Below are positions 10,935-61,291 of a stretch of DNA of 64,000 nt, piece by piece. The notes beneath the pieces were generated by a model. That model saw only the letters and a list, made by a program, of their open reading frames with translations, was not told the DNA's origin and did no database searches. This DNA comes from Amycolatopsis thermophila (GTDB lineage: Bacteria; Actinomycetota; Actinomycetes; Mycobacteriales; Pseudonocardiaceae). Where the stretch lies: NCBI RefSeq assembly GCF_030814215.1, contig NZ_JAUSUT010000001.1, positions 4,092,001 to 4,156,000 of the forward strand. The letters are read 5' to 3'. Both the position numbers and the translations under genes were made by a program. The stretch's first letter is position 1. Every line of letters begins with the position of its first letter.

Positions 10935-10969
10935 TGTGAGCCGGGTCACGTCCAGCTGGGAGGCTGCCG

Positions 10970-11398
10970 ATGCGGATCGCCGACTTACTGCGGAACAAGG
11001 GCCACTGGGTCGCGACGGTGCGACCCGAGTCGTCCATCACCGATCTGCTCGCCGGTCTGGCCGAACACAACGTGGGCGCCATGGTCGTGGCCGGCGAGGA
11101 CGGCATCGCGGGCATCGTCTCCGAGCGCGATGTGGTGCGCAAACTGCACGAACGCGGACCGGCCCTGCTGGAGCGGCCGGTGTCGGAGATCATGACGACG
11201 GTGGTCGCGACCTGCACGCCGCGTGATTCGGTGGACGACCTGAGCGTGCTGATGACGCAGCGGCGCGTGCGGCACGTGCCTGTCGTCGAGGGTGGGCGGC
11301 TGGTCGGGATCGTCAGCATCGGCGACGTGGTGAAGACCCGGATGGAGGAGCTGGAGGCGACGCAGCAGCAGCTGGCGGCCTACATCGCGCAGGGTTGA
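10970..11398 (+). CDS. CBS-domain pair protein
   Basis: 142 aa made of two CBS motifs, about residues 8-65 and 72-130, each with the conserved GIVSERDVV and GIVSIGDVV signature. Such stand-alone pairs bind adenine nucleotides and act as energy sensors; the partner is unknown. GGGAGG lies seven bases upstream of the ATG. The gene ends four bases before the converging DUF2293 gene. Confidence 0.9.
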   Translation: MRIADLLRNKGHWVATVRPESSITDLLAGLAEHNVGAMVVAGEDGIAGIVSERDVVRKLHERGPALLERPVSEIMTTVVATCTPRDSVDDLSVLMTQRRVRHVPVVEGGRLVGIVSIGDVVKTRMEELEATQQQLAAYIAQG

Positions 11399-11402
11399 GG
11401 CG

Positions 11403-12446
11403 TCAGGCCCGTTGCCAGCGTGCCAGGACGCGGTCGAGGTCCGGTCGGATCCGTTCGCGGGCTTCGGCGCGCGGCACGCCGTCCATGAGCATCCGGTCGT
11501 AGGCGGTGTCGAGGTGCCGGACGGAGGCGATCACCGCGAGGCGCACCGCATTCTCGTCCAGGGCCCGCCCGGCGGCGGACCGCCCGACCCGGCCGCTGCC
11601 GCGGGTCCCGGCGTGCTCGGCGATGAGGTGTGCCCGTTCGGCCGGGCAGCCCGGGTAGAGCTGCTGGATGCCGGCGGCGAAGGCGGCCTGGAATTCGACG
11701 TCCTGCACCGCGCGGCGTTGTGCGTCGCGTTCCCGCCGCCGGGCGCGGACGTCCTCGTCGGCGAGGCACTGTCGTTCGGCCCGGTCCAGCGCGTCCGCCT
11801 CGACGAGGATCCCTTGGCGTTCGTAACGTTTGCGCCGCCGGTTGAAGCGCTGGACCAGGACGCAGAGGGTGCTTTCCCGCCTGGCGCGGCGGGACAGCGC
11901 GGCGTTGCCCGCGGGCAGCAGGACGAGGTGGTCGAAGTCCGCGCAGGTCAGGCAGAGGGGGCCCGCGGGGAGGACGAGGTCGCCGGGCTCGCCCGGGTCG
12001 CCGCAGCCGGCACAGCTCCAGGCGCGGTCGGCGGTGTTCACGGTCAGGTCGGGTGCCTTGTTCTGCCGTTCGGCGAGACGGGCCCGCTGCTTGTCGGACA
12101 GGTCGGCGGAGAGCCAGTGGGTGCGGCAGAGCGCGTCGAGGGTGTCGTCGTCGGTGAACCGCAGATCGCGGCGGTCCCGGGTGGCGGCGGTGTAGGTCGT
12201 GCCGGCCGGGGTGAGCCCGTTCTCCTTGGCCCAGTCGTGGAGGCAGCGGAGCGCTTCGGTGATGCGCTCGTTGTCGACGGGCAGCGCTTCGGTGAGCGGG
12301 CTGAAGCGCCCCTGCCGCCACGCTTCGACGCGGTGAGCGGGCACCCATCCCAGCGAGACGAACACCTCGACCGGAGCAACGTACTTGCGCTGGGCAAGCG
12401 AAGCAGCCGCCACGGAGGCCACGCGGCCACGCAATTTCCCACCCAT
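11403..12446 (-). CDS. DUF2293 domain-containing protein
   Basis: 347 aa, no characterised function. The C-terminal third (about 255-340) is the DUF2293 domain: LYPGCPAERAHLIAEHA, GSGRVGRSAAGRALD, and VRHLDTAYDRMLMDGV. The middle (about 165-190) has a CAGCGDPGE...LCLTCAD four-cysteine arrangement suggesting a zinc ribbon. The N-terminus is basic (MGGKLRGR). The zinc-ribbon suggestion is mine. Convergent with the CBS gene; the upstream side is the noncoding repeat stretch 12447-13013. Confidence 0.8.
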   Translation of the reverse strand: MGGKLRGRVASVAAASLAQRKYVAPVEVFVSLGWVPAHRVEAWRQGRFSPLTEALPVDNERITEALRCLHDWAKENGLTPAGTTYTAATRDRRDLRFTDDDTLDALCRTHWLSADLSDKQRARLAERQNKAPDLTVNTADRAWSCAGCGDPGEPGDLVLPAGPLCLTCADFDHLVLLPAGNAALSRRARRESTLCVLVQRFNRRRKRYERQGILVEADALDRAERQCLADEDVRARRRERDAQRRAVQDVEFQAAFAAGIQQLYPGCPAERAHLIAEHAGTRGSGRVGRSAAGRALDENAVRLAVIASVRHLDTAYDRMLMDGVPRAEARERIRPDLDRVLARWQRA

Positions 12447-12604
12447 CGGGCGGAAAGTGTAGCCAGTGTTCGTCGGCCCACGGCCGTGGACGGGCCCTTC
12501 GGCGCCTGCTGTGGACCTTGGCGCGGGATCGTTGCGTCCCCTTCCGCTGGGCCGCCGCCCCGGCCGTTTGCTCCCGCCTCGCAGCCGTTGGGGCTCTCTG
12601 ACAC

Positions 12605-12768
12605 CCCCGAACCGCTCAGCTTGCCCCCGCGTCTGGGTGATCGGCGCCGGCTGGGAGCCCGTTTCCGCAAGGGCTCGCGGTCATCACCCGGAACGGCTCA
12701 GCCTGCCCCGCGTCTGGGCGATTGGCGCCGGCCGGAAGGCCGCTCCCGCAAGGGCTCACAGTCGTCAC
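12605..12768. repeat. 81-base tandem repeat, two diverged copies
   Basis: Within the 567-base gene-free stretch 12447-13013, two copies with period 81 (the GTCTGGG core at 12631 and 12712) share CCGCGTCTGGG, GGCGCCGG and CCGCAAGGGCTC. A third partial copy begins near 12768. Open frames here are GC-driven and lack start signals. I see no gene in the rest of the stretch. Confidence 0.75.
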
Positions 12769-13013
12769 CAGACGGCTCCCTGCCCGGGGTGAACGCAGCG
12801 GCTTCGACCGTGCCTGTCCCGATCCGCTCACCGACTCCGCAGCCGAGAGGCTGCGTGCCGCAAAGCCTGTGGTCTTTGACAACCGTCCCGGCCAACTCCG
12901 CGCCCGGCCCCGCGTCCAGTGACATCGCCCGCGGCACCTCGTCGCGTGCCCGTCCCCGCCCAACACTCCGTCGGACCAACCCGCTGGTCCCGGCACCGAC
13001 CACTGCTGTCACA

Positions 13014-13952
13014 TCAGGGCAATCCGGCCACCGTCGGCCGCAGGGCGCTGATCCCGGCCGTCAGCGCGACGCGCCCGCTGGCGAAGGTGGTCCCCCGCGG
13101 CAGTTCGGTCAACAGCACCGCGATGTAGCGGTAGTCCCGGCCGGCCAGCCCGGTCGTGTTCAGCACCACCGCCCGGCTGATCTCCATCCAGCCCTGCTTC
13201 ACCGCGCGCGGCTGCCCCGGCAGACCGTCCGGGATGCCGAAGTGCTGCGGGAACCCGTCCGAGGCCGTGCTGCGGATCGCCGCCAGCCCGTCGAGGATCG
13301 GCTGCCGCGCCTCCGGCGGGACCTGGGTGGTCAGGTAGCGGTAGACGGCGACGAGGTCGTTCGGCGTCGTCCTCGTCATCTCCCACTGCTCGGAAATCCG
13401 CGGTGGACGGGTGTTCGGCAGATGCATCAGATCGGCCATGCGGGTGATGATCGCCCCGCGTCCGCCCGAGTTCCAGTACGACTCGGCGTCGCCGTCGTGG
13501 CTCAGTGACAGCATCTCCACGATGCGGGCGCGCTGGGTCTCGCTCGGCGCGTGCCAGCCGCCGGTGTGCAGCACGTCCAGCGCCATCAGGAGCTTGACCA
13601 CGGAGGCGGCGTAGAACTGCCGGTCCCCGTGGGCCGAGGCGAGCAGCTCGCCGGTGGCCGTGTCGTACAGCGCCAGGCCGACGGTGGTGCCGGAGACCTT
13701 GTCGTTCACCGCATCCGTGACCGCGCCGGCGAGGCGATCGCGCTCGCCTTGGTTGAGTGTCGAATGGGCGGTGCTGACCGGGACGCTGGACGACGTCGTC
13801 ACCGTTGTCGTCGTGACCGCGGTGGACGTCGGCCCGGCGACGGACACGGTGTCGGTGTCCGCTCGACCGGCGGTCAGCGAGGTGACGACCACGGCGATGG
13901 CGACTCCCGCGCCCAGGCCGGCGAGCACGAGGCGCCATTTCATGTCCCGCAT
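13014..13952 (-). CDS. Membrane-anchored serine hydrolase, class A beta-lactamase-like
   Basis: About 312 aa. An N-terminal signal anchor (residues 6-25, LVLAGLGAGVAIAVVV) is followed by a Thr/Ser-rich linker to about 65 and a beta-lactamase/transpeptidase-like domain. The nucleophile motif SxxK is S117-V-V-K120, and the late KQG in AVKQGW is in the KTG-box position. No convincing SDN motif or Omega-loop Glu was identified, so true beta-lactamase activity is doubtful; a peptidoglycan-related hydrolase is as likely. The ATG at 13952 (MRDMKW) has GGACGG upstream and is chosen over an ORF extension beginning in the divergent promoter. Divergent from the DUF4192 gene; the 245 bases between hold no other gene. 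Confidence 0.8.
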   Translation of the reverse strand: MRDMKWRLVLAGLGAGVAIAVVVTSLTAGRADTDTVSVAGPTSTAVTTTTVTTSSSVPVSTAHSTLNQGERDRLAGAVTDAVNDKVSGTTVGLALYDTATGELLASAHGDRQFYAASVVKLLMALDVLHTGGWHAPSETQRARIVEMLSLSHDGDAESYWNSGGRGAIITRMADLMHLPNTRPPRISEQWEMTRTTPNDLVAVYRYLTTQVPPEARQPILDGLAAIRSTASDGFPQHFGIPDGLPGQPRAVKQGWMEISRAVVLNTTGLAGRDYRYIAVLLTELPRGTTFASGRVALTAGISALRPTVAGLP

Positions 13953-14197
13953 AACGTCCGTCCCCGTGAAACCGTGCCCATCATGATCACTGTACGGGAC
14001 AGCCACTCAATTCTCGTATGGATCTTGATCAGGTTTCTACTGTGGACCGGCGCGCGGGGACGCGCACTTTAGCGCATACCTCCGACAAAACCGGGCCGCT
14101 CGCCTGAGAACCCGGCGAGTTGTCCACATCGTCCTCAACCATCCACAGAATTCCGTTCTGTTCCTGGGTGATCCGTTTCCTGCCGCATAGTGGAGTC

Positions 14198-15298
14198 ATG
14201 ACATCGACCACCACCCACACCGGCACGGACGGCCGCGTCACCGTCCGCATCTCCGATCCCGGCGAGCTGATCGCGGCGGTGCCGCACCTGCTTTCGTTCC
14301 GGCCCGGGCCGTCCGTCGTACTGCTCAACCATGCGGGCGCGAAAGAGCGGCGAATCCTCCCGGTGATCCGCGCGGATCTCCCCGACGAGAGCTTCGAGCC
14401 CGACGCGGTGCGCGAACTCGTGCGCCGCCTGCTCCGACATCCCGGCGCCGGGGTGACGGTCGTGATCATCGGCTGTCGTCCCGGGCACCGGGCACCGCCG
14501 GGGGAGGTGCCGCACAAGCAGCTGGCCGGCCTGCTGGTCCGCGCGCTCGACGACGTCGGCCGGCCGGTCGACCACGCGTTGTGGGTGCCGGAGATCCGTG
14601 CCGGCGTGCCGTGGAGGTGCTACCTCGACGACTGCCCGCCAGGTGTTCTGCCGGACGACCGGGACACCGTCATGGCCGCGGCGATGGCGACCCGCGGCTG
14701 GGTGACCTACGACAGCCGCGAGGAGATGTCGCGACTGCTGGACCCGGACGATCCAGCGGCGATCGAGCGACGGCAACGCATGCTGGACGCGGCGGTGGAC
14801 AGGCTGGCGGAAGCACCCGCACCGGAAGCCATCGCCGCCGCGATGGGTCATTTCGGCGCCGAGGAGTCCGCGGCGCACCTGTCCGTCGTGCGTGCCGCGC
14901 TGGCTCGCGCCGAGGCGGGTGACCTCGACCTGAGCGACGAGGACGTCGTGTCCCTGGCGATGGCCTTGTCGAACCTCGAGGTGCGGGATCGGTGCCTGAG
15001 GACCGCCGAGCCGCCCGGCGAGCCGGCGTCGAACGCGGCGGAGCGCCTGTGGCTCGAGCTGGTGCGCCGCACGCCACCGCCGGAGCGCGCCGAGCCGGCC
15101 GTCTTGCTGGGCTACTCGGCCTACCGCCGCGGCGACTGCGTCCTGGCCGGCCTGGCGTTCGACAACGCCCTGACCGCCCGGCCCGGCCACCGCCTCGCCG
15201 AGCTCCTCGACCTGTGCCTGGACCGCCAGATCCCACCCGCCGCGCTGAGCAGACTGAGCCACCCGAACGGAGGTGCCCCGATGGCGAACACCCCCTAG
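14198..15298 (+). CDS. DUF4192 domain-containing protein
   Basis: About 366 aa, soluble, no known function. It belongs to the actinobacterial DUF4192 family: the start ISDPGELIAAVPHLLSFRP is the signature, followed by VVLLNHAGAKERR and a C-terminal alpha-helical repeat region (FDNALTARPGHRLAELLD) resembling a TPR. ATG 14198 gives the family N-terminus; the ribosome site TGGAG is close to it. The 3' side opens into the long repeat stretch toward galE. Confidence 0.85.
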   Translation: MTSTTTHTGTDGRVTVRISDPGELIAAVPHLLSFRPGPSVVLLNHAGAKERRILPVIRADLPDESFEPDAVRELVRRLLRHPGAGVTVVIIGCRPGHRAPPGEVPHKQLAGLLVRALDDVGRPVDHALWVPEIRAGVPWRCYLDDCPPGVLPDDRDTVMAAAMATRGWVTYDSREEMSRLLDPDDPAAIERRQRMLDAAVDRLAEAPAPEAIAAAMGHFGAEESAAHLSVVRAALARAEAGDLDLSDEDVVSLAMALSNLEVRDRCLRTAEPPGEPASNAAERLWLELVRRTPPPERAEPAVLLGYSAYRRGDCVLAGLAFDNALTARPGHRLAELLDLCLDRQIPPAALSRLSHPNGGAPMANTP

Positions 15299-51209: not shown

Positions 51210-51803
51210 TCAGCGGAGCGCGGTGCTCAGCTCGTCGACGCCGGATGCGAGCAGTTCGCCCAGATCGGCCGCGGGATCGCGCAGCCACTGTTCGTACGCC
51301 GCCAGTGCGATGCCCAGGGCCGTGTAGGCGATCGTCTGCGCGGCCAGCGACGAGGCGTCCACCCCGAGCCGGTCCGCCGCGAACTCCGCGATCACCTGAC
51401 GCCAGTCCGCGTACCGCAGCGTCGAGTGCGCCTGCAGCGCCGGGGTGGTCAGGATCAGCTCCATCCGCCGCCGGTGCCAGGGCGCCTCGTCCGGGGCGAC
51501 GCGGTTGAAGTCGACCAGCGCCTCGCGGATGACGGCGAGCAGCGGGCGGTCCGGCGGGTACGACGCGAGCCGTTTGCGCATGCGGTCCAGCTGGCCGTCG
51601 AAGTCGCCCCAGGCGACGTCGTTCTTCGACGGGAAGTAGCGGAAGAACGTACGCCGCCCGATGCCGGCGGCCTTCGCGATGTCGTCGATCGTGGTGCGGT
51701 CGAACCCCCGGCTGGTGAACAGCTCGAACGCCACGTGCTCGACCTCGGCACGTGACGTGATCGGCTTGCGCCCCGCCCGGTGGGCATCCGCCTTTTCGGT
51801 CAT
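51210..51803 (-). CDS. mftR: Mycofactocin system TetR-family regulator
   Basis: 197 aa TetR. HTH: VEHVAFELFTSRGFDRTTIDDIA and IGRRTFFRYFPSKNDVAWG, typical MftR motifs, then a ligand-binding helical domain. Regulates the divergent mft genes; acyl-CoAs have been reported as ligands for MftR. The ATG at 51803 is preferred because an upstream GTG (51821) would start inside the palindrome at 51817-51829. Confidence 0.9.
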   Translation of the reverse strand: MTEKADAHRAGRKPITSRAEVEHVAFELFTSRGFDRTTIDDIAKAAGIGRRTFFRYFPSKNDVAWGDFDGQLDRMRKRLASYPPDRPLLAVIREALVDFNRVAPDEAPWHRRRMELILTTPALQAHSTLRYADWRQVIAEFAADRLGVDASSLAAQTIAYTALGIALAAYEQWLRDPAADLGELLASGVDELSTALR

Positions 51804-51816
51804 CCCTCTTCCATTC

Positions 51817-51829
51817 GGCACTCGGTGCC
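51817..51829. promoter_or_regulatory. Candidate MftR operator
   Basis: GGCAC-TCG-GTGCC, a perfect 5-base dyad, lies between the divergent mftR and mftA genes, 14 bases before the mftR start. A hexamer ATTATC, usable as -10, follows on the plus strand at 51830. Assignment is by position only. Confidence 0.5.
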
Positions 51830-51888
51830 ATTATCGTCCCAGAAGCGCGGCCGCAGCGGAGCGGCCGGATCGCCGAAGGGAGCATCCC

Positions 51889-51993
51889 ATGTCCGACAAG
51901 ATGACCGCCGACTCTGCCCCCAAGGACACGCTCGTCGAAGAGGACCTGCTCGTGGAAGAGGTCTCCATCGACGGCATGTGCGGCGTCTACTGA
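51889..51993 (+). CDS. mftA: Mycofactocin precursor peptide MftA
   Basis: 34 aa, too short for most gene callers. The acidic leader ends in the conserved core IDGMCGVY, whose last Val-Tyr is decarboxylated and cyclised by MftC to build the redox cofactor. AGGGAGC precedes the ATG at 51889. mftB begins five bases after its stop. Confidence 0.96.
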   Translation: MSDKMTADSAPKDTLVEEDLLVEEVSIDGMCGVY

Positions 51994-51998
51994 CCGTC

Positions 51999-52262
51999 GT
52001 GTTCGATCCCGACCGGGCCTACCGGTGCTCCCCGCGGGTCGCGTTGCGGCCGGAACCGTTCGGGGCGCTCGCCTACGACTTCGGCACCCGGAGGCTTTCG
52101 TTCCTGAAGACGAAGATCCTGGTCGAGGTGGTGCGCACGCTCGGGGACAAACCCGACGTGCACACCACCCTCGACGCCGCCGGCGTCCCCGACGACCAGC
52201 GCCAGAGCTACCTGAAGGCGCTGGCGGGACTCGCCGACAACGGCACGATCGAACCGCGCTGA
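51999..52262 (+). CDS. mftB: Mycofactocin precursor-binding chaperone MftB
   Basis: 87 aa from GTG 51999. RiPP recognition element (PqqD-like) with YDFGTRRLSFLKTKIL and VVRTLGD segments; binds the MftA leader and delivers it to MftC. No strong ribosome site, so coupling to mftA translation is likely. Confidence 0.9.
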   Translation: MFDPDRAYRCSPRVALRPEPFGALAYDFGTRRLSFLKTKILVEVVRTLGDKPDVHTTLDAAGVPDDQRQSYLKALAGLADNGTIEPR

Positions 52263-52282
52263 ACCACCACGAAGGGCGTGCG

Positions 52283-53485
52283 ATGAAGCTCGTCGAACAC
52301 TTCAAGCAGGGGCTCAACTCGCCCATCTGCCTGACCTGGGAACTCACCTACGCCTGCAACCTGTCGTGCGTGCACTGCCTGTCCTCGTCGGGCCGCCGCG
52401 ACCCGCGCGAGCTGAGCACGCAGGAGTGCAAGGCCGTCATCGACGAGCTGCAGCGCATGCAGGTCTTCTACGTCAACATCGGCGGTGGCGAACCGACCGT
52501 GCGCTCCGACTTCTGGGAGCTCGTCGAGTACGCGGTGGACCACCAGGTGGGCGTCAAGTTCTCCACCAACGGCGTCAAACTCACGCCGGAGCGGGCGCGC
52601 TGGCTCGCCGCGACCGACTACGTCGACGTGCAGATCTCGCTCGACGGCGCGACCGCCGAGGTCAACGACCACGTCCGCGGCCCCGGCTCGTACGACACCG
52701 CGATGCGGGCGATGCGGAACCTCTCCGACGCCGGGTTCCGCGACTTCAAGCTCAGCGTCGTGATGACCCGGCACAACGTCGGGCAGCTCGACGAGTTCAA
52801 GGCCATCGCCGACCGCTACGGCGCCCAGTTGCGCATCACGCGGCTGCGCCCGTCCGGTCGCGGTGCCGACACCTGGGACGAGCTGCACCCCACCGCGGAG
52901 CAGCAGCTCGAGCTCTACGAGTGGCTCGTCGCCAACGGCGAGAAGGTCCTCACCGGCGACTCGTTCTTCCACCTCAACGCGCTCGGCTCGGACCCGCTGC
53001 CGGGCCTGAACCTGTGTGGCGCGGGCCGGGTGGTGTGCCTGATCGACCCCGTCGGCGACGTCTACGCGTGCCCGTTCGCGATCCACGAGGAGTTCCTCGC
53101 CGGCAACGTCCGCGACGAGGGCGGGTTCGCCGGGGTGTGGACGGGGTCCGCGCTGTTCGAGCGCCTGCGCGGCCCGCAGACCGGCGGCGCGTGCACGTCG
53201 TGCTCGGCCTACGACGCCTGCCAGGGCGGGTGCATGGCGGCGAAGTTCTTCACCGGACTGCCGCTGGACGGGCCCGACCCCGAGTGCGTCAAGGGGCACG
53301 GCGAGCTGGCCCTGCAGACCGTGGGCGCGCCCGCGCCACGGTCGCATGTGGACCATTCGCACCGCACGACCCGCCGGAGCCGCAAGGTCGCGGTGGACAT
53401 CGGGTTCGGCCCGCCGTCCGACGGCGCCCGGCCGGACCGGGCCTGCGACACCAGCCCGCTCGCGGGGTTCCAGCCCGCGCGATGA
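52283..53485 (+). CDS. mftC: Mycofactocin radical SAM maturase MftC
   Basis: 400 aa. Radical-SAM cluster CNLSCVHC (Cys25, Cys29, Cys32); GGGEPTVRSDF; STNGVKLT; ISLDGATAEVND. The C-terminal SPASM part has LCGAGRVVC, VYACPF, and CTSCSAYDACQGGC for auxiliary clusters. Converts the MftA C-terminus by oxidative decarboxylation and C-C bond formation. GAAGG upstream of ATG 52283. Ends overlapping OYE 1. Confidence 0.97.
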   Translation: MKLVEHFKQGLNSPICLTWELTYACNLSCVHCLSSSGRRDPRELSTQECKAVIDELQRMQVFYVNIGGGEPTVRSDFWELVEYAVDHQVGVKFSTNGVKLTPERARWLAATDYVDVQISLDGATAEVNDHVRGPGSYDTAMRAMRNLSDAGFRDFKLSVVMTRHNVGQLDEFKAIADRYGAQLRITRLRPSGRGADTWDELHPTAEQQLELYEWLVANGEKVLTGDSFFHLNALGSDPLPGLNLCGAGRVVCLIDPVGDVYACPFAIHEEFLAGNVRDEGGFAGVWTGSALFERLRGPQTGGACTSCSAYDACQGGCMAAKFFTGLPLDGPDPECVKGHGELALQTVGAPAPRSHVDHSHRTTRRSRKVAVDIGFGPPSDGARPDRACDTSPLAGFQPAR

Positions 53486-55299
53486 GCAGGCTCGCCGGCC
53501 CCGTGCGGGTCGGCGGCCGTACCGCCCCGAGCCGGGTCCTCTTCGGTCCGCACGAAACGAACCTGGCCCGGGGCCGCCGGCTCGCCGACCGCCACGTCGC
53601 CTACTACCGGCGGCGGGCCGAGGGCGGTGCCGGGATCGTCGTCACCGAGACGGCGAGCGTGCACGACTCCGACTGGCCCTACGAGCGCGCACCGCTGGCC
53701 GCGCTGTGCGGTCCCGGTTGGTCGTCCGTCGCGGACGCCTGCCGTCCACACGGGACGCTGGTGGTGGCCTCGCTCGGGCACGCCGGCGGCCAGGGGAGTT
53801 CGGCCCACCACCAGTCGGCGCTGTGGGCGCCGTCCCGCGTGCCGGACGCGGTGAGCCGGGAGCTGCCGATGGCCATGGAAGAGCGGGAGATCTCGGCGCT
53901 CCTCGAGGGATTCCGTGACTCGGCCGCGCTGGCCGAGGAGTCCGGTGTGGACGGTGTGGAGATCGACGCCGGTCAGCATTCCCTGCTGCGGCAGTTCTGC
54001 TCGGGGCTGACGAACCAGCGCACCGACCGCTACGGCGCCGACCGGGGACTGCTGCTGCGCGAGGTGCTGGCCGCGGTGCGCGAGGTGATCGGCGACCGGA
54101 TCCTCGGGCTGCGGCTGGCCTGCGACGAGGGCGCGCCGTGGGCGGGCATCACGCCCGCGTCGGTGCCCGAGGTGGACGGCGTGGACTACCTGGTGCCCGT
54201 GCGCGGCTCGGCGTTCGCGGACGCCCGTCCTGATCTGCGCACCGAGCCGGGGTTCAACTCGCGGATGTGCCGGGCGTTGTCCGGGCGCGTGCTGACCGTG
54301 TTGCAGGGCAGCGTGGTCGATCCCGCCGAGGCGGAGCGGTCACTGGAGTTCGCCGGGCTGGTCGAGATGACCCGCGCGCAGATCGCCGACCCCGACCTCG
54401 TCCGGCACGTGCGGGCGGGGACGCGGCCGCGGCCGTGCGTGCTGTCCAACCAGAGGTGCCGGGTGCGCGACCCGCGCAACCCGATCGTCAGTTGCATCGG
54501 CGAGCCGCGCAGCGGGCACGAGACCGAGGACCCGCCCGTGGGGGAGCCGGGTTCCGGCGAGGTGCTGGTCGTCGGCGGGGGACCGGCCGGGCTGGAGGCC
54601 GCGCGGGTCCTCGCGCTGCGGGGTTTCGACGTCGAGTTGACCGAGCGGGCCGAGCGGGTCGGCGGCATGGTCCGGGTCGCGGCGAGGGTCACCGGGCGGG
54701 ACCGGCTCGCCGGGCTCGTCGACTGGCTGGAGTCCGAGGTCCGGCGCCTGGGCGTGCGCGTGCGGACCGGCGTGGAGACCACCGCGGCGGACGGGCGCCC
54801 GGTGATCGTGGCAACGGGCAGTGTCGCGGGGCCCCGCGACTACGCCGTCGACGGCGGGCGCGTGCTGGACGTGGTCGACGTGCTGACCGGGGCGGTGCCG
54901 GTGCCCGGCGGGCCGGTCGTGGTGCACGACCCGCTCGGCGACTGGGTCGGTGCGGGGGTCGCGGAACTCCTCGCGGCCCGGCACCCGGTGGCGATCGTCA
55001 GCCCGGACCCGGTGATCGCCACCCAGGTGGCCGACCTCGCCGAGGTCAACGCGCGGCTGCAGCGGGCCGGGGTCGCGCTCGCGAAGCGGTCCCGGCTGCG
55101 GGAGGTGTGTGCGGACCACGTCGTGCTGGAGGACGTGTTCACCGCGGAACGCCGTGCGCTGGCCTGCGCCGCTGTGGTCCATTGTGGACACCGATTGCCG
55201 AACGCGGCACTGGCCGGGCAGGCGGTCGGCGACGCGGTCGCGCCGCGGACGATCCACGAGGCCGTCCTGGACGGCCGTCGCGCGGCGGTGGCGCTGTGA
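53482..55299 (+). CDS. Mycofactocin system FadH/OYE-family oxidoreductase 1
   Basis: 605 aa. N-terminal OYE TIM barrel with FMN (about 1-300), then an iron-sulfur motif region and a C-terminal NAD(P)/FAD-type domain (VLVVGGGPAGLEAARVLAL, about 360 on). In FadH the 4Fe-4S cluster uses C-x2-C-x3-C-x11-C; here it reads Cys319, Ser322, Cys326, Cys338, so one ligand is replaced by serine and a normal cluster is doubtful. ATGA overlap with mftC. Probably couples flavin chemistry to mycofactocin; the reaction is unknown. Confidence 0.88.
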   Translation: MSRLAGPVRVGGRTAPSRVLFGPHETNLARGRRLADRHVAYYRRRAEGGAGIVVTETASVHDSDWPYERAPLAALCGPGWSSVADACRPHGTLVVASLGHAGGQGSSAHHQSALWAPSRVPDAVSRELPMAMEEREISALLEGFRDSAALAEESGVDGVEIDAGQHSLLRQFCSGLTNQRTDRYGADRGLLLREVLAAVREVIGDRILGLRLACDEGAPWAGITPASVPEVDGVDYLVPVRGSAFADARPDLRTEPGFNSRMCRALSGRVLTVLQGSVVDPAEAERSLEFAGLVEMTRAQIADPDLVRHVRAGTRPRPCVLSNQRCRVRDPRNPIVSCIGEPRSGHETEDPPVGEPGSGEVLVVGGGPAGLEAARVLALRGFDVELTERAERVGGMVRVAARVTGRDRLAGLVDWLESEVRRLGVRVRTGVETTAADGRPVIVATGSVAGPRDYAVDGGRVLDVVDVLTGAVPVPGGPVVVHDPLGDWVGAGVAELLAARHPVAIVSPDPVIATQVADLAEVNARLQRAGVALAKRSRLREVCADHVVLEDVFTAERRALACAAVVHCGHRLPNAALAGQAVGDAVAPRTIHEAVLDGRRAAVAL

Positions 55300-57227
55300 G
55301 CCTGTTGTTCTCCCCGTTGCGGATCGGGCCCGTCGAGGTGCGCAACCGGATCGTGTTCGCCGCGCACCTGACCAACTACGCCACCGACGGGCTGCCGACC
55401 GAGCAGCACGCCGCCTACTACGCGGCGCGCGCGGCGGGCGGGACCGGGCTCATCGTGTCCGAGGAGCACGTCGTGCACCCGTCGGACCAGCCGTACGAGA
55501 AGGTGATCCGGGGCCACCGGCCGGAGGTCGTGCCGGGCTACCGGCGGATCACCGACGCGGTGCACGCGCACGGGGTGCCGATCTTCGCGCAGCTCAACCA
55601 CAACGGTGGCCAGGCGTCGTCGATGTACACGCGGCGCCCGGTGTGGGCGCCCTCGCCGGTGCCGGACCCGCTGTTCCGGGAGGTGCCGAAGGCGATGACC
55701 GCCGCGGAGATCGCCGAGGTCGTCGCCGGGTACGGGCGGGTCGCGCGGCACTGCGCCGAGGGCGGCTTCGACGGCGTGGAGATCCAGTGCTCGCAGTCCT
55801 CGCTGGTCCGGGGGTTCCTGGCGCCGGGGACGAACCTGCGGACCGACGGCTACGGCGGGTCGCTGGCGAACCGGGCGCGGATCCTGCTGGAGATCCTCGA
55901 CGTCGTGCGCGCGTCGATCGGCCCGGATCGCGCGCTCGGTGTGCGGTTGTCCGGCGACGACCTGGTCGCCGGTGGCGTCACGCTCGACGAGGCGGTCGAG
56001 GTGGCGCGGATGGTGGAGCCGGCCGTGGACTACCTGAACACCTCGGTCGGGGTGGCGACGTCGTCGCTGTACATGGTCGAGCCGTCGATGGCGGTGCCGC
56101 GCGGGTACGCCCTCCCGGTGGCCGAGGCGGTGCGGCGCGCGGTGTCGGTGCCGGTGGTCGGGGTCGGCCGGATCAAGTCGCCCGAGGAGGCCGAACGCGC
56201 GCTGGCCGAGGGGCGGTGCGACCTGGTCGGCGTCGTGCGCGGGCAGATCGCGGACCCGTCGTTCGCCCGGAAGGCCCGGGCCGGGCAGCCGGTGCGGACG
56301 TGCCTGTCGTGCAACCAGGAGTGCGCCGGGCGGATGGGGCTCAACCGCTGGCTCGGGTGCGTGGAGAACCCGCTCGCCGGCCGCGAGGCCGTGCCGCTGC
56401 CCGCGCCCGGGCCCCGTCCGAAGCGGGTGCTCGTGGTCGGAGGGGGACCGGCCGGCCTGCAGGCGGCGGCCACCGCCGCGCAGCGCGGCCACCGGGTGAC
56501 GGTGTTCGAGCGCTCGGCCGAGCCCGGCGGGCAGATCGCACTGGCGGCGACCGCGCCGGGCCGGGCCGAGCTGGGTGACCTGGTGCGCAACCTGCTCGCC
56601 GACTGCGCGCGGGCCGGGGTCGCGGTGCGCACCGGTGTCGCCGCGACGGCGGCTCTGGTGCGGGACGAGGCGCCGGACGCGGTGGTGCTCGCGACGGGCG
56701 CCCGGGCGCGGTTGCCGTCGTGGGCCTCGGGGTTGCCGCGGGTGGTGCACGCGCGGGACGTGCTGTCCGGGGTCGCGCCGTCGGGGGAGGTGGTGGTGGT
56801 CGACGAGGTCGGTTTCCACCCGGCGACGTCGGTGGCGGAGCTGCTGGCCCGGCGCGGCTGCCGGGTGACGCTGTCGACACCCGGGATGGTGGCCGGGCAG
56901 GACCTGGGGATCACCCTGGACCGGGAGATGTTCGCCCGGCGCGCGCACGGGCTCGGGATCGCGGAGCGGACGGACGAGATGGTGCTCGCGGCCGCCGCGA
57001 CGGAGGATGGGGGTGTGGCGATGCGGGTCCTGACGCACACGACCGGTGAGACCAGGGAGGTCCGCTGCGACTGGGTGGTGTGCGCGACGCACCAGGACCC
57101 CGAGGACGACCTGTGGCGCTCCCTGCGCGACGCGCCGTTCCCGGTCCTGCGCGCGGGTGACTGCGTCACCCCGCGACGCGCCCACGCCGCGATCGTGGAG
57201 GGCCACCGCGCGGGGGTGTCGCTGTGA
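55296..57227 (+). CDS. Mycofactocin system FadH/OYE-family oxidoreductase 2
   Basis: 643 aa, same domain plan as OYE 1, GTG start overlapping it by four bases. The 4Fe-4S motif is complete: Cys336, Cys339, Cys343, Cys355 (C-x2-C-x3-C-x11-C as in 2,4-dienoyl-CoA reductase). FMN barrel with QLNHNGGQASS and YGGSLANRARI; FAD-type fold starts VLVVGGGPAGLQAAATAAQ. Different from OYE 1 also in the barrel (FAQLNHNGG vs ASLGHAGG). Likely partner or downstream oxidoreductase. Confidence 0.9.
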   Translation: MSLLFSPLRIGPVEVRNRIVFAAHLTNYATDGLPTEQHAAYYAARAAGGTGLIVSEEHVVHPSDQPYEKVIRGHRPEVVPGYRRITDAVHAHGVPIFAQLNHNGGQASSMYTRRPVWAPSPVPDPLFREVPKAMTAAEIAEVVAGYGRVARHCAEGGFDGVEIQCSQSSLVRGFLAPGTNLRTDGYGGSLANRARILLEILDVVRASIGPDRALGVRLSGDDLVAGGVTLDEAVEVARMVEPAVDYLNTSVGVATSSLYMVEPSMAVPRGYALPVAEAVRRAVSVPVVGVGRIKSPEEAERALAEGRCDLVGVVRGQIADPSFARKARAGQPVRTCLSCNQECAGRMGLNRWLGCVENPLAGREAVPLPAPGPRPKRVLVVGGGPAGLQAAATAAQRGHRVTVFERSAEPGGQIALAATAPGRAELGDLVRNLLADCARAGVAVRTGVAATAALVRDEAPDAVVLATGARARLPSWASGLPRVVHARDVLSGVAPSGEVVVVDEVGFHPATSVAELLARRGCRVTLSTPGMVAGQDLGITLDREMFARRAHGLGIAERTDEMVLAAAATEDGGVAMRVLTHTTGETREVRCDWVVCATHQDPEDDLWRSLRDAPFPVLRAGDCVTPRRAHAAIVEGHRAGVSL

Positions 57228-58051
57228 CGGGTGTCGTGGGAGGCTCCGGGCGTGGTGATGATCAAGTGAGCGGGCGGGTGGCCCTCGTGACCGGGGCGGC
57301 GCGCGGCATCGGCGCGGCCGTCGTGCACCGCCTCGCCGGCGAGGGGTGGCGGGTCGTCGCGGTGGATGTCGGTGAGGACCTGCCCGGGGTGCCCTACCCG
57401 CTCGGCCGGCGGGAGCAGCTCGCCGAGGTGGCCGCGAAGTGGCCCGGCCAGGTTCTCGACGTCGTCGCCGACGTGCGGGACCAGCAGGCCCTCGACGGGG
57501 CCGTGGCCACCGCCGAGGGCGAGTTCGGGGGCCTGGACGCCGCCGTCGCCGCGGCCGCCGTCATGGCCGGCGGGCGGCCCCTGTGGGAGACCACCGATTC
57601 CGAATGGGAATCGCTCTTCGCCTCCGGCGTGGACGGTGTCTTCCACCTGGCCCGCGCGGCCGTCCCGGCCCTGCTGCGCCGGCCGCAGCCGCGCACCGGG
57701 CGGTTCGTCGCGCTCGCCTCGGCCGCCGCGCACACCGGCCTGTGGCGCCTGGCCGGCTACAACGCCGCCAAGCACGCCGTGGTCGGCCTGATCCGCGGCC
57801 TGGCGACCGACCTGCGCGGCACGGGCGTCACCGCCACGGCGGTCTCACCCGGCTCGACCCGCACCAGCATGCTCGACGCCACCGCCGCCCTCTACGACCT
57901 GGACGACGTCGAGGAGTTCGCCCAGCACCAGCTCGCCGAGCGCCTGCTGGAACCCGAGGAGGTGGCCGCCGCGGTGTGCTGGCTGTGCGGCCCGGACGCC
58001 GGCGCGATCACCGGCACGGTGGTGCACGCGGACGGGGGGTTCACGGCATGA
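57224..58051 (+). CDS. Mycofactocin-coupled SDR family oxidoreductase
   Basis: 275 aa from GTG 57224, which overlaps the OYE 2 stop by four bases; a GTG at 57266 (VSGRVALVTGAARG) is an alternative closer to the family start. NAD site TGAARGIG; catalytic Tyr-x3-Lys in YNAAKHAVVGL with ASAAAHTGLW before it; GTVVHADGGF at the end. Members keep NAD tightly bound and depend on mycofactocin in place of free coenzyme exchange (known for the TIGR04504 group). Confidence 0.85.
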   Translation: MTGVVGGSGRGDDQVSGRVALVTGAARGIGAAVVHRLAGEGWRVVAVDVGEDLPGVPYPLGRREQLAEVAAKWPGQVLDVVADVRDQQALDGAVATAEGEFGGLDAAVAAAAVMAGGRPLWETTDSEWESLFASGVDGVFHLARAAVPALLRRPQPRTGRFVALASAAAHTGLWRLAGYNAAKHAVVGLIRGLATDLRGTGVTATAVSPGSTRTSMLDATAALYDLDDVEEFAQHQLAERLLEPEEVAAAVCWLCGPDAGAITGTVVHADGGFTA

Positions 58052-59460
58052 CGACACTGCGGCTCGACCCGTCCACCAAGGCGGTCGGCGGCGGGCGCGT
58101 CCTCGTCGGCGGTGCGCCCCTGCGGGTCATCAGGCTGTCCGCGACCGGCGCCCGCCTGTTCGCGGCCTGGTGCGACGGCGAACCGGTCGGCGACAAGCCC
58201 CACCACCGGCGCCTCGCCGACAAGCTGATCCTCGCCGGCATGGTCCACCCCGCCTACGACGACGCGAAGCTGACCCCGCAGGACGTCACGGTCGTCGTCC
58301 CGGTCCGCGACCACGCCGACCGGCTCGCCGGGCTCCTGCCGCACCTGGCCGAGGTGCGCGAAACCCTCGTCGTCGACGACGGGTCCGCCGTTCCGGTGCC
58401 GCACGCCGTCGACCGGCACCCGGTCCCGCGCGGGCCGGCCGCGGCCCGCAACACCGGCTGGCGCAAGGTCACCACCGAACTGGTCGCCTTCCTCGACGCC
58501 GACACCCGGCCGGAACCGGGCTGGCTCGAGCCGCTGCTGGCCCAGTTCGAGGACCCGGCCGTGGTGGCCGTCGCGCCCCGCGTGCGGAGCGAACCGGGTG
58601 CCGGCACGCTCTCCCGCTACGAGCGGTTGCGGTCCTCTTTGGACATGGGACCGGTCCCGGCCCAGGTCCGGCCGCGCGGCCGCATCACCTACCTGCCGAC
58701 CGCCGCGCTGGTCGTGCGAACCTCGGCGCTGCAGGCGATCCACGGCTTCGACGAGGAGCTGCGCTTCGGGGAGGACGTCGATCTGATCTGGCGCCTCGTC
58801 GACGCCGGCGGCTCCGTGCGGTACGAGCCGCGGTCCGAAGTGGTCCACGCACCGCGCAGCACCTGGCGTGGCTGGCTCCAACAGCGGTACAGCTACGGCA
58901 CTTCCGCCGGCCCGCTCGCCCGCCGACACGGCCGCAAGGCCCTGGCACCGGTCCGCGTGTCCGGCTGGACCGCACTGGCGTGGCTCGCGATCGCCGCGGG
59001 ACGCCCGAAAACCGGTGCCGCGATCGCGCTCGCCACCGCCGCTTTGTTGCCGCGCAAGCTGAAACCACTCGACGTGCCGGCCGAGGAGGCCCTCGGCATC
59101 GCGCTGCGCGGGCACGTCGCGGCGGGCCGGTTCCTCGCCGACGCCCTCACCGGCGCGTGGGGCCCGGTCGCGGTCCCCCTGCTGGCGCTGTCCCGGCGGG
59201 GACGGCGCGTGCTCGCCCTGGCCTACGCCCGCCACCTCCTCGACTGGGCGCGCACCCGGCCGGACGTCGGCCCGGCGCGGTGGCTGCTGGCGCGCGCCGC
59301 CGACGACCTCGCCTACGGGGCCGGGGTGTGGCGCGGCTGCCTGGCCGAGCGGCAAGCCGGTCCGCTGATCCCGGACCTGGCCAACTGGCCCGCTCGCCGC
59401 CCACCAGCACCCTCGACGGAGGCGCTGCGCGGCGCGGACTCGATCCGGAAACGCCGGTGA
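58048..59460 (+). CDS. mftF: Mycofactocin glycosyltransferase MftF
   Basis: 470 aa GT2 family. TVVVPVRDHADRLAGLL and LVVDDGSAVPVP bind UDP-sugar; FLDADTRPEPGWLEPL is the DxD-like site; FGEDVDLIWRLVDAGG binds acceptor. Adds beta-1,4-glucose units to mycofactocin. The N-terminal 75 residues form a PqqD-like segment that may recognise the precursor. Overlaps the SDR and mftE (both 4 bases). Confidence 0.92.
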   Translation: MTTLRLDPSTKAVGGGRVLVGGAPLRVIRLSATGARLFAAWCDGEPVGDKPHHRRLADKLILAGMVHPAYDDAKLTPQDVTVVVPVRDHADRLAGLLPHLAEVRETLVVDDGSAVPVPHAVDRHPVPRGPAAARNTGWRKVTTELVAFLDADTRPEPGWLEPLLAQFEDPAVVAVAPRVRSEPGAGTLSRYERLRSSLDMGPVPAQVRPRGRITYLPTAALVVRTSALQAIHGFDEELRFGEDVDLIWRLVDAGGSVRYEPRSEVVHAPRSTWRGWLQQRYSYGTSAGPLARRHGRKALAPVRVSGWTALAWLAIAAGRPKTGAAIALATAALLPRKLKPLDVPAEEALGIALRGHVAAGRFLADALTGAWGPVAVPLLALSRRGRRVLALAYARHLLDWARTRPDVGPARWLLARAADDLAYGAGVWRGCLAERQAGPLIPDLANWPARRPPAPSTEALRGADSIRKRR

Positions 59461-60170
59461 ACCTCGCCGACCTGGCCTGGCCCGAACTGGGCGAGCGCCG
59501 CCTGCTGGCCGTGCCGCTGGGCGCGGTCGAGCAGCACGGGCCGCACCTGCCGTACACGGTGGACACCGAGATCGCGGTCGAACTGTGCCGTCGTCTGGGG
59601 CAGGCGCGGCCGGAGGTGGTCGTCGCGCCCGCGCTGCCCTACGGTTCCAGTGGCGAGCACGCCGGTTTTCCGGGCACCCTCTCGATCGGTCAGGAAGCAA
59701 CGGAACTCGTCGTGACCGAACTGGTGCGTTCCGCCGACGCGTTCGCCGGGGTGTTGCTGGTGTCCGCGCACGGTGGCAACGCGTTCCCCCTGCACCGGGC
59801 TGTGAAGCGGCTGCGGTACGAGGGGCGCAACGTGCGCGCGTGGAGCCCCGACGGCCCGGCCGACGACTCGCACGCGGGGCGGCTGGAGACGTCGGTGATG
59901 CTGGCGCTGCGGCCGGAATCGGTGCGGACGCAGCGGTTCGAGGCGGGCAACACCGCGCCGTTGCCGGAGTTGATCGGGCGGTTGCGCTCGGAAGGGGTGC
60001 GCGGGGTGAGCCCGAACGGTGTGCTGGGTGATCCGCGCGGGGCGAGCGCGGAGGCGGGGCGCGCCGCACTCAGCCGTTGGACGGAAGCTCTACTTGATGT
60101 TGCCGCAACGCTTGCCAGAGATGGCATCATGGAGCAGTCGGTGCATGAGACCCCTGTCACAAAGAGGTGA
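59457..60170 (+). CDS. mftE: Mycofactocin creatininase-family peptidase MftE
   Basis: 237 aa. Metal ligands in EQHGPHLPYTVDT and HGGN; YGSSGEHAGFPGTLS and a late Glu in RLETSVM complete the creatininase motif. Cleaves the Val-Tyr-derived moiety from the processed precursor. GTG start overlaps mftF; the stop is five bases from the alcohol dehydrogenase start. Confidence 0.93.
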   Translation: MNLADLAWPELGERRLLAVPLGAVEQHGPHLPYTVDTEIAVELCRRLGQARPEVVVAPALPYGSSGEHAGFPGTLSIGQEATELVVTELVRSADAFAGVLLVSAHGGNAFPLHRAVKRLRYEGRNVRAWSPDGPADDSHAGRLETSVMLALRPESVRTQRFEAGNTAPLPELIGRLRSEGVRGVSPNGVLGDPRGASAEAGRAALSRWTEALLDVAATLARDGIMEQSVHETPVTKR

Positions 60171-60175
60171 TCGGT

Positions 60176-61291
60176 GTGAAGACCAAGGCCGCCGTCCTGC
60201 ATTCCGCGGGCAAGCCGTTCGAGATCGAGGAGCTCGAACTCGACGGTCCACGCGAAGGTGAGGTCCTGATCAAGTACACGGCCGCCGGGCTGTGCCACTC
60301 CGACCTCCACCTGATCGACAACGACCTGGTGCCGCGGTTCCCGATCGTGGGCGGGCACGAGGGTTCCGGCATCATCGAGGACGTCGGGCCCGGCGTCACC
60401 AAGGTCAAGCCGGGCGACCACGTCGTCTGCAGCTTCATCCCGAACTGCGGCACCTGCCGCTACTGCGCCACCGGCCGGTCGAACCTGTGCGACATGGGTG
60501 CCACGATCCTCGACGGTGGCATGCCGGACGGCAGCTTCCGCTTCCACCGCGGCGGCACCGATTACGGTGCGATGTGCATGCTGGGCACGTTCTCGGAGCG
60601 GGCCACGATCTCGCAGCACTCCGTGGTGAAGGTCGACGAGTGGCTGCCGCTGGAGACCGCGGTGCTGGTCGGGTGCGGGGTGCCGACGGGCTGGGCGTCG
60701 GCCAACTACGCCGGCGGGGTGCGCGCCGGCGACACGACGGTCATCTACGGCATCGGCGGGATCGGGATCAACGCCGTGCAGGGCGCGGCGCACGCCGGTG
60801 CCGCGAACGTGATCGCGGTCGACCCGGTGGCGTTCAAGCGGGAGAAGGCGCTCGAACTCGGCGCGACCCACGCGTTCGCGACGGCCGCCGAGGCCGCGGA
60901 GAAGGTCGCGGAGCTGACCTGGGGCCAGATGGCGGACCAGGCGCTGATCACCGTGGGCACCGTGGAAGAGGACGTCGTCACCGACGCGTTCAACGTGGTC
61001 GGCAAGGGTGGCACCGTCGTGATCACCGGGCTGGCTAACCCGGAGAAGCTGACGGTGCACCTGTCGGGCGGCGTGATGACCCTGTTCGAGAAGACGGTCA
61101 AGGGAACGCTCTTCGGGTCGGCCAACCCGCAGTACGACATCCTCCGGCTGCTTCGCCTGTACCAGGCGGGGCACCTGAAGCTGGACGAACTCGTGACGAA
61201 GCGGTACTCGCTCGAGGAGGTCAACGAGGGCTACCAGGACCTGCGTGACGGCAAGAACATCCGCGGGGTGATCACGCACGCGGCCGACTGA
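60176..61291 (+). CDS. NDMA-dependent (mycofactocin-linked) alcohol dehydrogenase
   Basis: 371 aa zinc alcohol dehydrogenase of the nicotinoprotein type. Catalytic ligands in GLCHSDLH (Cys40) and GGHEGSG (His60, Glu61); structural zinc Cys90, Cys93, Cys96, Cys104; NAD fold YGIGGIGINAVQGAAHAG. These enzymes hold NAD and pass electrons to mycofactocin, or to NDMA in vitro. GTG 60176 has AGAGGTGA upstream and fits the conserved KTKAAVLH start. Confidence 0.92.
   Translation: MKTKAAVLHSAGKPFEIEELELDGPREGEVLIKYTAAGLCHSDLHLIDNDLVPRFPIVGGHEGSGIIEDVGPGVTKVKPGDHVVCSFIPNCGTCRYCATGRSNLCDMGATILDGGMPDGSFRFHRGGTDYGAMCMLGTFSERATISQHSVVKVDEWLPLETAVLVGCGVPTGWASANYAGGVRAGDTTVIYGIGGIGINAVQGAAHAGAANVIAVDPVAFKREKALELGATHAFATAAEAAEKVAELTWGQMADQALITVGTVEEDVVTDAFNVVGKGGTVVITGLANPEKLTVHLSGGVMTLFEKTVKGTLFGSANPQYDILRLLRLYQAGHLKLDELVTKRYSLEEVNEGYQDLRDGKNIRGVITHAAD

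Follow-up and report, generated by a model that had tools for sequence, protein, structure and literature searches.

The mycofactocin operon and the location of mftD

We analysed 64,000 nucleotides of Amycolatopsis thermophila (C1:4092001-4156000, C1 being the single contig of 7,315,124 bases that makes up the genome) and refer to this whole stretch as the window. It contains an OYE-type mycofactocin operon, in which two FadH/OYE flavoenzyme genes, OYE1 and OYE2, follow mftC. The original prediction, made from the letters of the window, had described ten genes mostly joined by 4-base overlaps, with no mftD in the window. This description was confirmed. In profile searches all ten genes scored above the curated NCBIfam cut-off of their own model, and the measured junctions are 5 bp between mftA and mftB, 20 bp between mftB and mftC, and 4-base overlaps at all six junctions from mftC to the alcohol dehydrogenase gene. 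The genes of MftA, MftB and MftC are adjacent and all over their cut-offs, which identifies a biosynthetic system, and this mftC is the only copy over the TIGR03962 cut-off in the genome. The features are as follows (profile score against cut-off in brackets).

51210..51821, minus strand: mftR, TetR-type regulator (TIGR03968, 279.6 bits against 224.9; ATG at 51803)
51889..51993, plus strand: mftA, precursor peptide with C-terminus SIDGMCGVY (TIGR03969, 53.6 against 25 bits)
51999..52262, plus strand: mftB, chaperone (TIGR03967, 111.8 against 33 bits)
52283..53485, plus strand: mftC, radical SAM maturase (TIGR03962, 657.5 against 265 bits)
53482..55299, plus strand: OYE1, mycofactocin system FadH/OYE oxidoreductase 1 (TIGR03996, 767.1 against 627.9 bits)
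55296..57227, plus strand: OYE2, mycofactocin system FadH/OYE oxidoreductase 2 (TIGR03997, 949.9 against 793.15 bits)
57224..57227, plus strand: 4-base overlap of OYE2 and SDR, the site where near relatives have etfA-fixC-fixX-etfB (window compared with L082 and L123)
57224..58051, plus strand: mycofactocin-coupled short-chain dehydrogenase/reductase (SDR) (TIGR04504, 407.8 against 250 bits)
58048..59460, plus strand: mftF, glycosyltransferase (TIGR03965, 441.8 against 280 bits)
59457..60170, plus strand: mftE, peptidase (TIGR03964, 264.7 against 172 bits)
60167..61291, plus strand: NDMA-dependent (mycofactocin-coupled) alcohol dehydrogenase (TIGR03989, 561.7 against 440 bits)

Three options had been offered for the missing gene: mftD lies elsewhere, the OYE pair does its step, or the pair is a redox partner of the cofactor. 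The first turned out to apply. The genome-wide search with TIGR03966, which had been proposed as a check, gave one match over the cut-off, outside the window at C1:69537-70688 (730.1 bits against 470.85), and its product carries an FMN_dh domain. Should the chromosome be circular, this gene would still be no less than 3.2 Mb away from the operon, and no mft gene was recognised in the 20 kb around it by inspecting translations by eye. Because the genome has this unlinked mftD, the OYE pair need not perform the MftD step in it. A search of the genome for MftG found nothing over the cut-off (best TIGR03970 match, 1.5e-66). Absence of MftG does not define membership of the mycofactocin system, since about 25% of mftC genomes lack it, as stated in the accessible part of a paper that leaves its replacement open (PMC11778925). 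A third FadH/OYE-type gene lies outside the operon at C1:297236-299104, with 456 bits to TIGR03997, below the cut-off.

The ETF module and mftD in related genomes

We surveyed 199 genomes of the window's order, each at least 90% complete (the order set). Matches over the cut-offs were found for mftC in 100 genomes, mftD in 96, OYE1 in 24, OYE2 in 17 and MftG in 67. OYE1 is restricted to genomes with mftC (24/100, against 0/99 of those lacking it), and mftD is present in all 76 mftC genomes without OYE1. The only four mftC genomes without mftD (4/100; G008, G049, G057, G078) all carry the OYE pair and belong to one family, and a loose search for mftD in them gave at best 147 bits. Their mftD slot is occupied by OYE1-OYE2, a gene of the alpha subunit of an electron transfer flavoprotein (ETF), a FixC-like flavoprotein, a FixX-like ferredoxin and the ETF beta gene, followed by mftE. 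Two genomes of the same family lacking OYE1 have the order mftC-mftD-mftE. Even where mftD is present, its position differs: it lies within 20 kb of mftC on the same contig in 61 of the 76 genomes without OYE1 and in none of the 20 with OYE1 and mftD (distances read by eye, separate contigs scored as not within 20 kb). Eight genomes have two over-cut-off mftD copies each (G081, G088, G105, G136, G144, G157, G186, G207). So does G030, where the copies of mftC, mftD and MftG repeat near both ends of one contig, probably an overlap.

The ETF genes belong to named mycofactocin families. At locus L093 the subunits score 413.3 bits with mft_etfA (cut-off 240) and 302.6 bits with mft_etfB (cut-off 200), and mft_etfA is over its cut-off in 5 of the 199 genomes, all with OYE1. 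In G113, which is assigned to the window's genus, and in Amycolatopsis sp. GM8, etfA-fixC-fixX-etfB lies exactly between OYE2 and the SDR gene. The window operon, with its OYE2/SDR overlap, does not have this module, and no mft_etfA match in its genome exceeds the cut-off (best 146.9 bits).

A wider set was obtained by scanning named genomes with an OYE1 alignment and keeping the best 80 loci; among the matches listed, the named OYE1 closest to that of the window is from Amycolatopsis tucumanensis (82%). The mftD search took in 31 of these loci (L122-L151, L161) and not the other 49, which have at most 38% identity to OYE1; the MftG search took in 26 genomes (25 of the 31 plus L152). The 31 comprise 10 loci with the module, 8 without it but with OYE2 in view, 12 that could not be scored, and L161, treated apart. 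Together with the 24 order-set genomes carrying OYE1, the scoreable loci give 15 with and 27 without the module. Members were called by tblastn with the L093 proteins, except at loci tested by family. One locus (L138) was scored as having the module from etfA and fixC alone; two were scored as lacking it with mftC not in view (L129, L144), and G147, where OYE2 is at a contig end, from the genome-wide mft_etfA search. Left out were L128, L132, L134-L137, L139, L141, L145, L146, L148 and L150, where a contig ends near OYE1/OYE2, or OYE2 or mftC is not in view.

We show that the module is strongly tied to the absence of mftD in these relatives. All 15 loci with the module have etfA and fixC after OYE2, and 14 have fixX and etfB as well. 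An over-cut-off mftD occurs in 2 of these 15 genomes (G113 and Saccharopolyspora aridisoli), against 27/27 of the loci with the OYE pair and no module (Fisher exact test, 4e-9, but the rows are related). MftG is distributed likewise, being over its cut-off in 0/15 against 20/27 (Fisher, 2e-6, again with related rows). The 13 genomes with the module and without mftD are three isolates by title (Kutzneria buriramensis, Kutzneria sp. 744 and Amycolatopsis sp. GM8), six metagenome-assembled genomes (MAGs) and the four of the order set. MftE, MftF or mycofactocin-coupled dehydrogenases are in view in 11 of them, and in K. buriramensis MftC, OYE1, OYE2, mft_etfA, mft_etfB, MftF and MftE all exceed the cut-offs of their models. 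Incomplete assembly is unlikely to explain all the mftD absences: three genomes titled as isolates and Thermogemmatispora also lack it, and the four order-set genomes are 90-100% complete. The best TIGR03966 matches of GM8 (297.6 bits) and L136 (349.4 bits) are below the cut-off and contain one stop codon each.

Thermogemmatispora aurantia (L161), which we take to be a member of the Chloroflexota, was read in 400 kb of its first contig. MftC (419.6 bits), MftB (78.1), a C-terminus resembling that of MftA (DFTIDGICGVY) and an MftF-like gene lie within about 7 kb; about 146 kb away, two OYE genes are followed by etfA, fixC, fixX and etfB. The second OYE is over the OYE2 cut-off (884.8 bits), while the first is under both cut-offs, with 694.3 bits for OYE2 and 428.4 for OYE1. 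The ETF subunits have mft_etfA/B as best families, below their cut-offs. In this genome mftD was not found (best 164 bits), and MftG had no match at 1e-60.

By itself the OYE pair does not substitute for MftD in general, because among the 42 scoreable loci mftD is absent only where ETF/FixC genes follow OYE2. The pair together with the module may be one, to judge from these distributions. General replacement of MftD by the pair is rejected, given the presence of mftD in 20 of the 24 OYE1 genomes of the order set and in two clusters with adjacent mftC-mftD-OYE1-SDR-OYE2 genes (Rhodococcus yananensis and Rhodococcus sp. SMB37). The original prediction had suspected a link between the OYE genes and mftD loss, to be abandoned if mftD occurred elsewhere in the same genome and widely alongside OYE pairs. 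Both are largely what we observed, but the suspicion has substance in relatives that have the ETF module. Simple replacement of MftG by the pair is also rejected, as TIGR03970 gives an over-cut-off match in 15 of these 24 genomes. The scores there are about 397-463 bits (in some cases only with adjacent pieces included), compared with 574-716 for most of family f7, and these matches may not be genuine MftG.

Some loci showed other arrangements. Four of family f12, scored as lacking the module, have a lone C-terminal FAD-binding domain of EtfA after OYE2 (L087 13952-14248, L088 14190-14477, L089 7548-7913, L091 7242-7901). The L091 fragment matches PF00766, with mft_etfA as best family, below the cut-off; these fragments are possibly remnants or repurposed ETF domains. 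At L091 a MoxR-type ATPase and a VWA protein are encoded between OYE1 and OYE2. In an Acidimicrobiia MAG (L134, 5482-5884), three mftA-like C-termini stand in a row before mftB, one SIDGMCGVY and two QQHGMCGVY, which could be an assembly repeat.

Active site and history of the OYE pair

OYE2 has the architecture of the trimethylamine/histamine dehydrogenases: an OYE barrel, a 4Fe-4S cysteine motif and a nucleotide domain without the NAD(P)H motif. The second GxGxxG motif is not in OYE2, and the strand of histamine dehydrogenase aligned at this place lacks it too; the pattern occurs in 2/48 OYE2 and 1/50 OYE1 rows, apparently as chance matches at displaced positions. The window protein retains its four Fe-S cysteines (pLDDT of the predicted structure, 86). 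Profile and fold comparisons also place 2,4-dienoyl-CoA reductase and 2-naphthoyl-CoA reductase among the closest solved relatives. OYE2 does not have the features of an NADPH-dependent ene-reductase of the FadH type, with Ser169 at the position of the FadH tyrosine besides the missing second GxGxxG.

Residue 167 of OYE2 aligns with the histidine of the YGAH motif of histamine dehydrogenase, whose tyrosine and histidine we take to be catalytic in the trimethylamine/histamine dehydrogenase family. It is His in all 15 proteins from loci with the module, and Gln in 4/4 of the window clade (window, G121, G133, A. tucumanensis) and in 18/23 of the other clade without the module. Neither group has the full Tyr/His pair, the window protein having Gln164 and Gln167 and the proteins with the module Gln164 and His167. 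Other probable changes of OYE2 in the window lineage are Cys219 to Ser and Phe274 to Pro. In OYE1 of the window, one of the four Fe-S cysteines is a serine (CVLSNQRC); this serine is shared by G113 and GM8, while G121, G133 and A. tucumanensis have cysteine.

The OYE2 tree has two state changes of the module label, which set apart the four-row window clade and the 23-row clade; all members of both have mftD. We read these changes as probable losses because Thermogemmatispora adjoins the root. On the mftC tree there are three pairs on starred branches and none against. Different states coexist in what is probably one genus: GM8 has the module and no mftD, G113 has both, and the window clade has mftD and no module. 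In the midpoint-rooted mftD tree, the window-clade gene groups with OYE-bearing genomes of other families (95*), and that of G113 with G157 (99*) on the opposite side. Since they sit in different starred clades, the two mftD genes appear to have been acquired separately.

Divergence within the operon is uneven. With S. aridisoli as reference, OYE2 is 83.5-84.6% identical in the two Amycolatopsis with the module and 70.4-71.8% identical in the window clade's four rows; none of the other genes, of eight compared, drops as far. Measured against Kutzneria the OYE2 drop is 7-10 points. Between the same groups, OYE1, mftC, SDR, mftF and mftE differ by at most 4 points in their identity to S. aridisoli, and mftB is 5-6 higher.

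Proposed roles and comparison with known systems

At about even odds, OYE1-OYE2-ETF-FixCX would be an ancestral, ETF-coupled alternative to MftD, and the window lineage would have gained mftD and dropped the ETF genes, retaining the pair in altered form. MftB and MftC would cyclise MftA, MftE release the product and MftF glycosylate it. In A. thermophila itself the unlinked MftD would deaminate the amine intermediate AHDP to premycofactocin. The ancestral pair, FMN/4Fe-4S flavoproteins like trimethylamine and histamine dehydrogenases, would have oxidised AHDP in place of MftD, with the dedicated ETF as electron acceptor and FixC/FixX as the onward path to quinone. The full module is cast as an AHDP dehydrogenase because the module largely takes the place of mftD and vice versa, the family includes amine oxidisers, and OYE2 has lost the shared histidine in most lineages without the module, all of which have mftD. 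One such amine oxidase is Pno of A. tumefaciens S33, whose cluster has etfAB and ETF-QO genes (PMC5500553). After the gain of mftD, loss of the ETF genes and change of His167 to Gln, the pair may have been kept for a derived redox task, perhaps in re-oxidation of mycofactocinol. More tentatively, there could be two routes to premycofactocin, MftD and OYE1-OYE2-EtfAB-FixCX, with lineages switching by gain of mftD as OYE2 lost its histidine and took on a new role; the window would then represent a state after the switch.

It is important to highlight what weighs against this reading. Module and mftD occur together in G113 and S. aridisoli. The OYE pair is retained in 27 loci with mftD, where its loss would be expected if it were merely a deaminase; because it was kept beside MftD there, some further role is indicated. 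The tyrosine of the amine dehydrogenases is Gln164 in OYE2, and His167 is kept at 5/27 loci without the module (four of family f12, and P. hydrocarbonoxydans). OYE2 is not alone in diverging, as mftR of the window clade is 5-7 points lower to S. aridisoli and up to 10 to Kutzneria. There are only two independent changes of the module, a count that does not tell gain from loss and with which the pair test cannot reach significance. Of the named genomes with the module, 6/10 are MAGs, and completeness figures are known for the order set only. Among the 12 unscoreable loci mftD is over the cut-off in 3 (L132, L146, L148) and absent in 9, seven of which are truncated. Another, L139, has mftC and OYE1, no OYE2 or ETF gene in the following 10 kb and no mftD, and is a possible counter-example. 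At L137 (Frankia sp. AgB1.9, 10001-14502), OYE1 is followed by a truncated OYE2 that runs into an acyl-CoA dehydrogenase frame, with no mftC in view; the genome has no mftD match at 1e-40, and the locus looks like a decaying one. Finally, genomes with the module also lack an over-cut-off MftG, so that the module could stand in for MftG.

This last point leads to the main rival, in which OYE1-OYE2, ETF and FixC/FixX together act as a mycofactocinol dehydrogenase that re-oxidises the cofactor and feeds the quinone pool, as MftG does in mycobacteria, and mftD is absent for another cause. We consider this unlikely, if well ahead of the other alternatives. FixC/FixX and ETF do point to quinone, the MftG counts given above fit, and the replacement of MftG where it is missing was left open in the part of PMC11778925 available to us. 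It leaves the 13/15 genomes with the module and without mftD unexplained, however, and the window clade lacks both the ETF genes and an MftG over the cut-off, yet has mftD, which makes mftD the better match for a takeover. The OYE pair also stands in the R. yananensis cluster together with an MftG of 578 bits, and the two share a contig in Rhodococcus sp. SMB37. A more doubtful alternative is that the pair acts on an outside substrate (dienoyl-CoA, a steroid or similar) rather than in cofactor biosynthesis, the genomes without mftD using another 2-hydroxyacid-oxidase paralogue. The CoA reductases among the closest solved relatives and the TIGR03966 paralogues of 147-298 bits in many genomes would suit it. 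The restriction of OYE1 to mftC genomes and the FadH features missing from OYE2 do not, paralogues in the same score range also occur in genomes with mftD, and two with the module and without mftD (L127, L140) have no TIGR03966 match at 1e-40. That the pair performs the MftD step in A. thermophila itself, as the original prediction had allowed, is now very improbable: although it occupies the operon's mftD slot and all four order-set mftC genomes without mftD have it, an mftD over the cut-off is present in this genome, the operon is without ETF genes, no mft_etfA match exceeds the cut-off, and position 167 of OYE2 is Gln instead of His.

MftD is treated as a required step that creates the redox centre of mycofactocin, and 13 genomes with the module have OYE-type mft genes and no over-cut-off mftD. 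Should the OYE-ETF module fill this gap, a key cofactor step would have a second enzymology open to direct testing, a substrate could be assigned to two flavoenzyme families that are so far uncharacterised, and Amycolatopsis would offer a close comparison for such tests. Some of the background has been reported: TIGR03966 is found in most, not all, mycofactocin species (Haft 2011, PMC3023750), and a BGCFlow study describes 17 clusters of Saccharopolyspora that have TIGR03997 and no mftD, cites S. erythraea as a producer of methylated mycofactocin and states that antiSMASH 6.1.1 needed the MftD profile to call a mycofactocin cluster (PMC11162802). Among open-licence papers, with subscription papers mostly outside the search, we found none joining mycofactocin with an electron transfer flavoprotein and, in the same scope, none on the function of the OYE pair. 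That the ETF module, the absence of mftD and the change of the OYE2 active site are linked seems new as far as this literature goes.

Compared with FadH and 2-naphthoyl-CoA reductase, OYE2 differs in Ser169 and the absent second GxGxxG. From trimethylamine and histamine dehydrogenases and Pno (FMN, 4Fe-4S, ETF-linked) it differs in Gln164 for Tyr, an identity of 25-30% and the tandem arrangement of two OYE proteins. OYE1 and OYE2 are members by score of TIGR03996 and TIGR03997, and these families, like NF038209/TIGR04503 (mft_etfA/B), carry the mycofactocin association in their names; their one-line descriptions give no function or link to mftD absence, and the window has no over-cut-off mft_etfA. 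The Saccharopolyspora mycofactocin-like clusters (PMC11162802) share the mft genes, TIGR03997 and a lack of mftD in the cluster; the available portion of that paper treats clusters only, with nothing on ETF genes or on mftD elsewhere in the genome. With the mycobacterial mftABCDEF(G) cluster, the window shares mftR, A, B, C, E and F, the NDMA-dependent alcohol dehydrogenase and SDR partners and the core peptide IDGMCGVY, but its mftD is unlinked, MftG is not over the cut-off, and the OYE pair is inserted after mftC.

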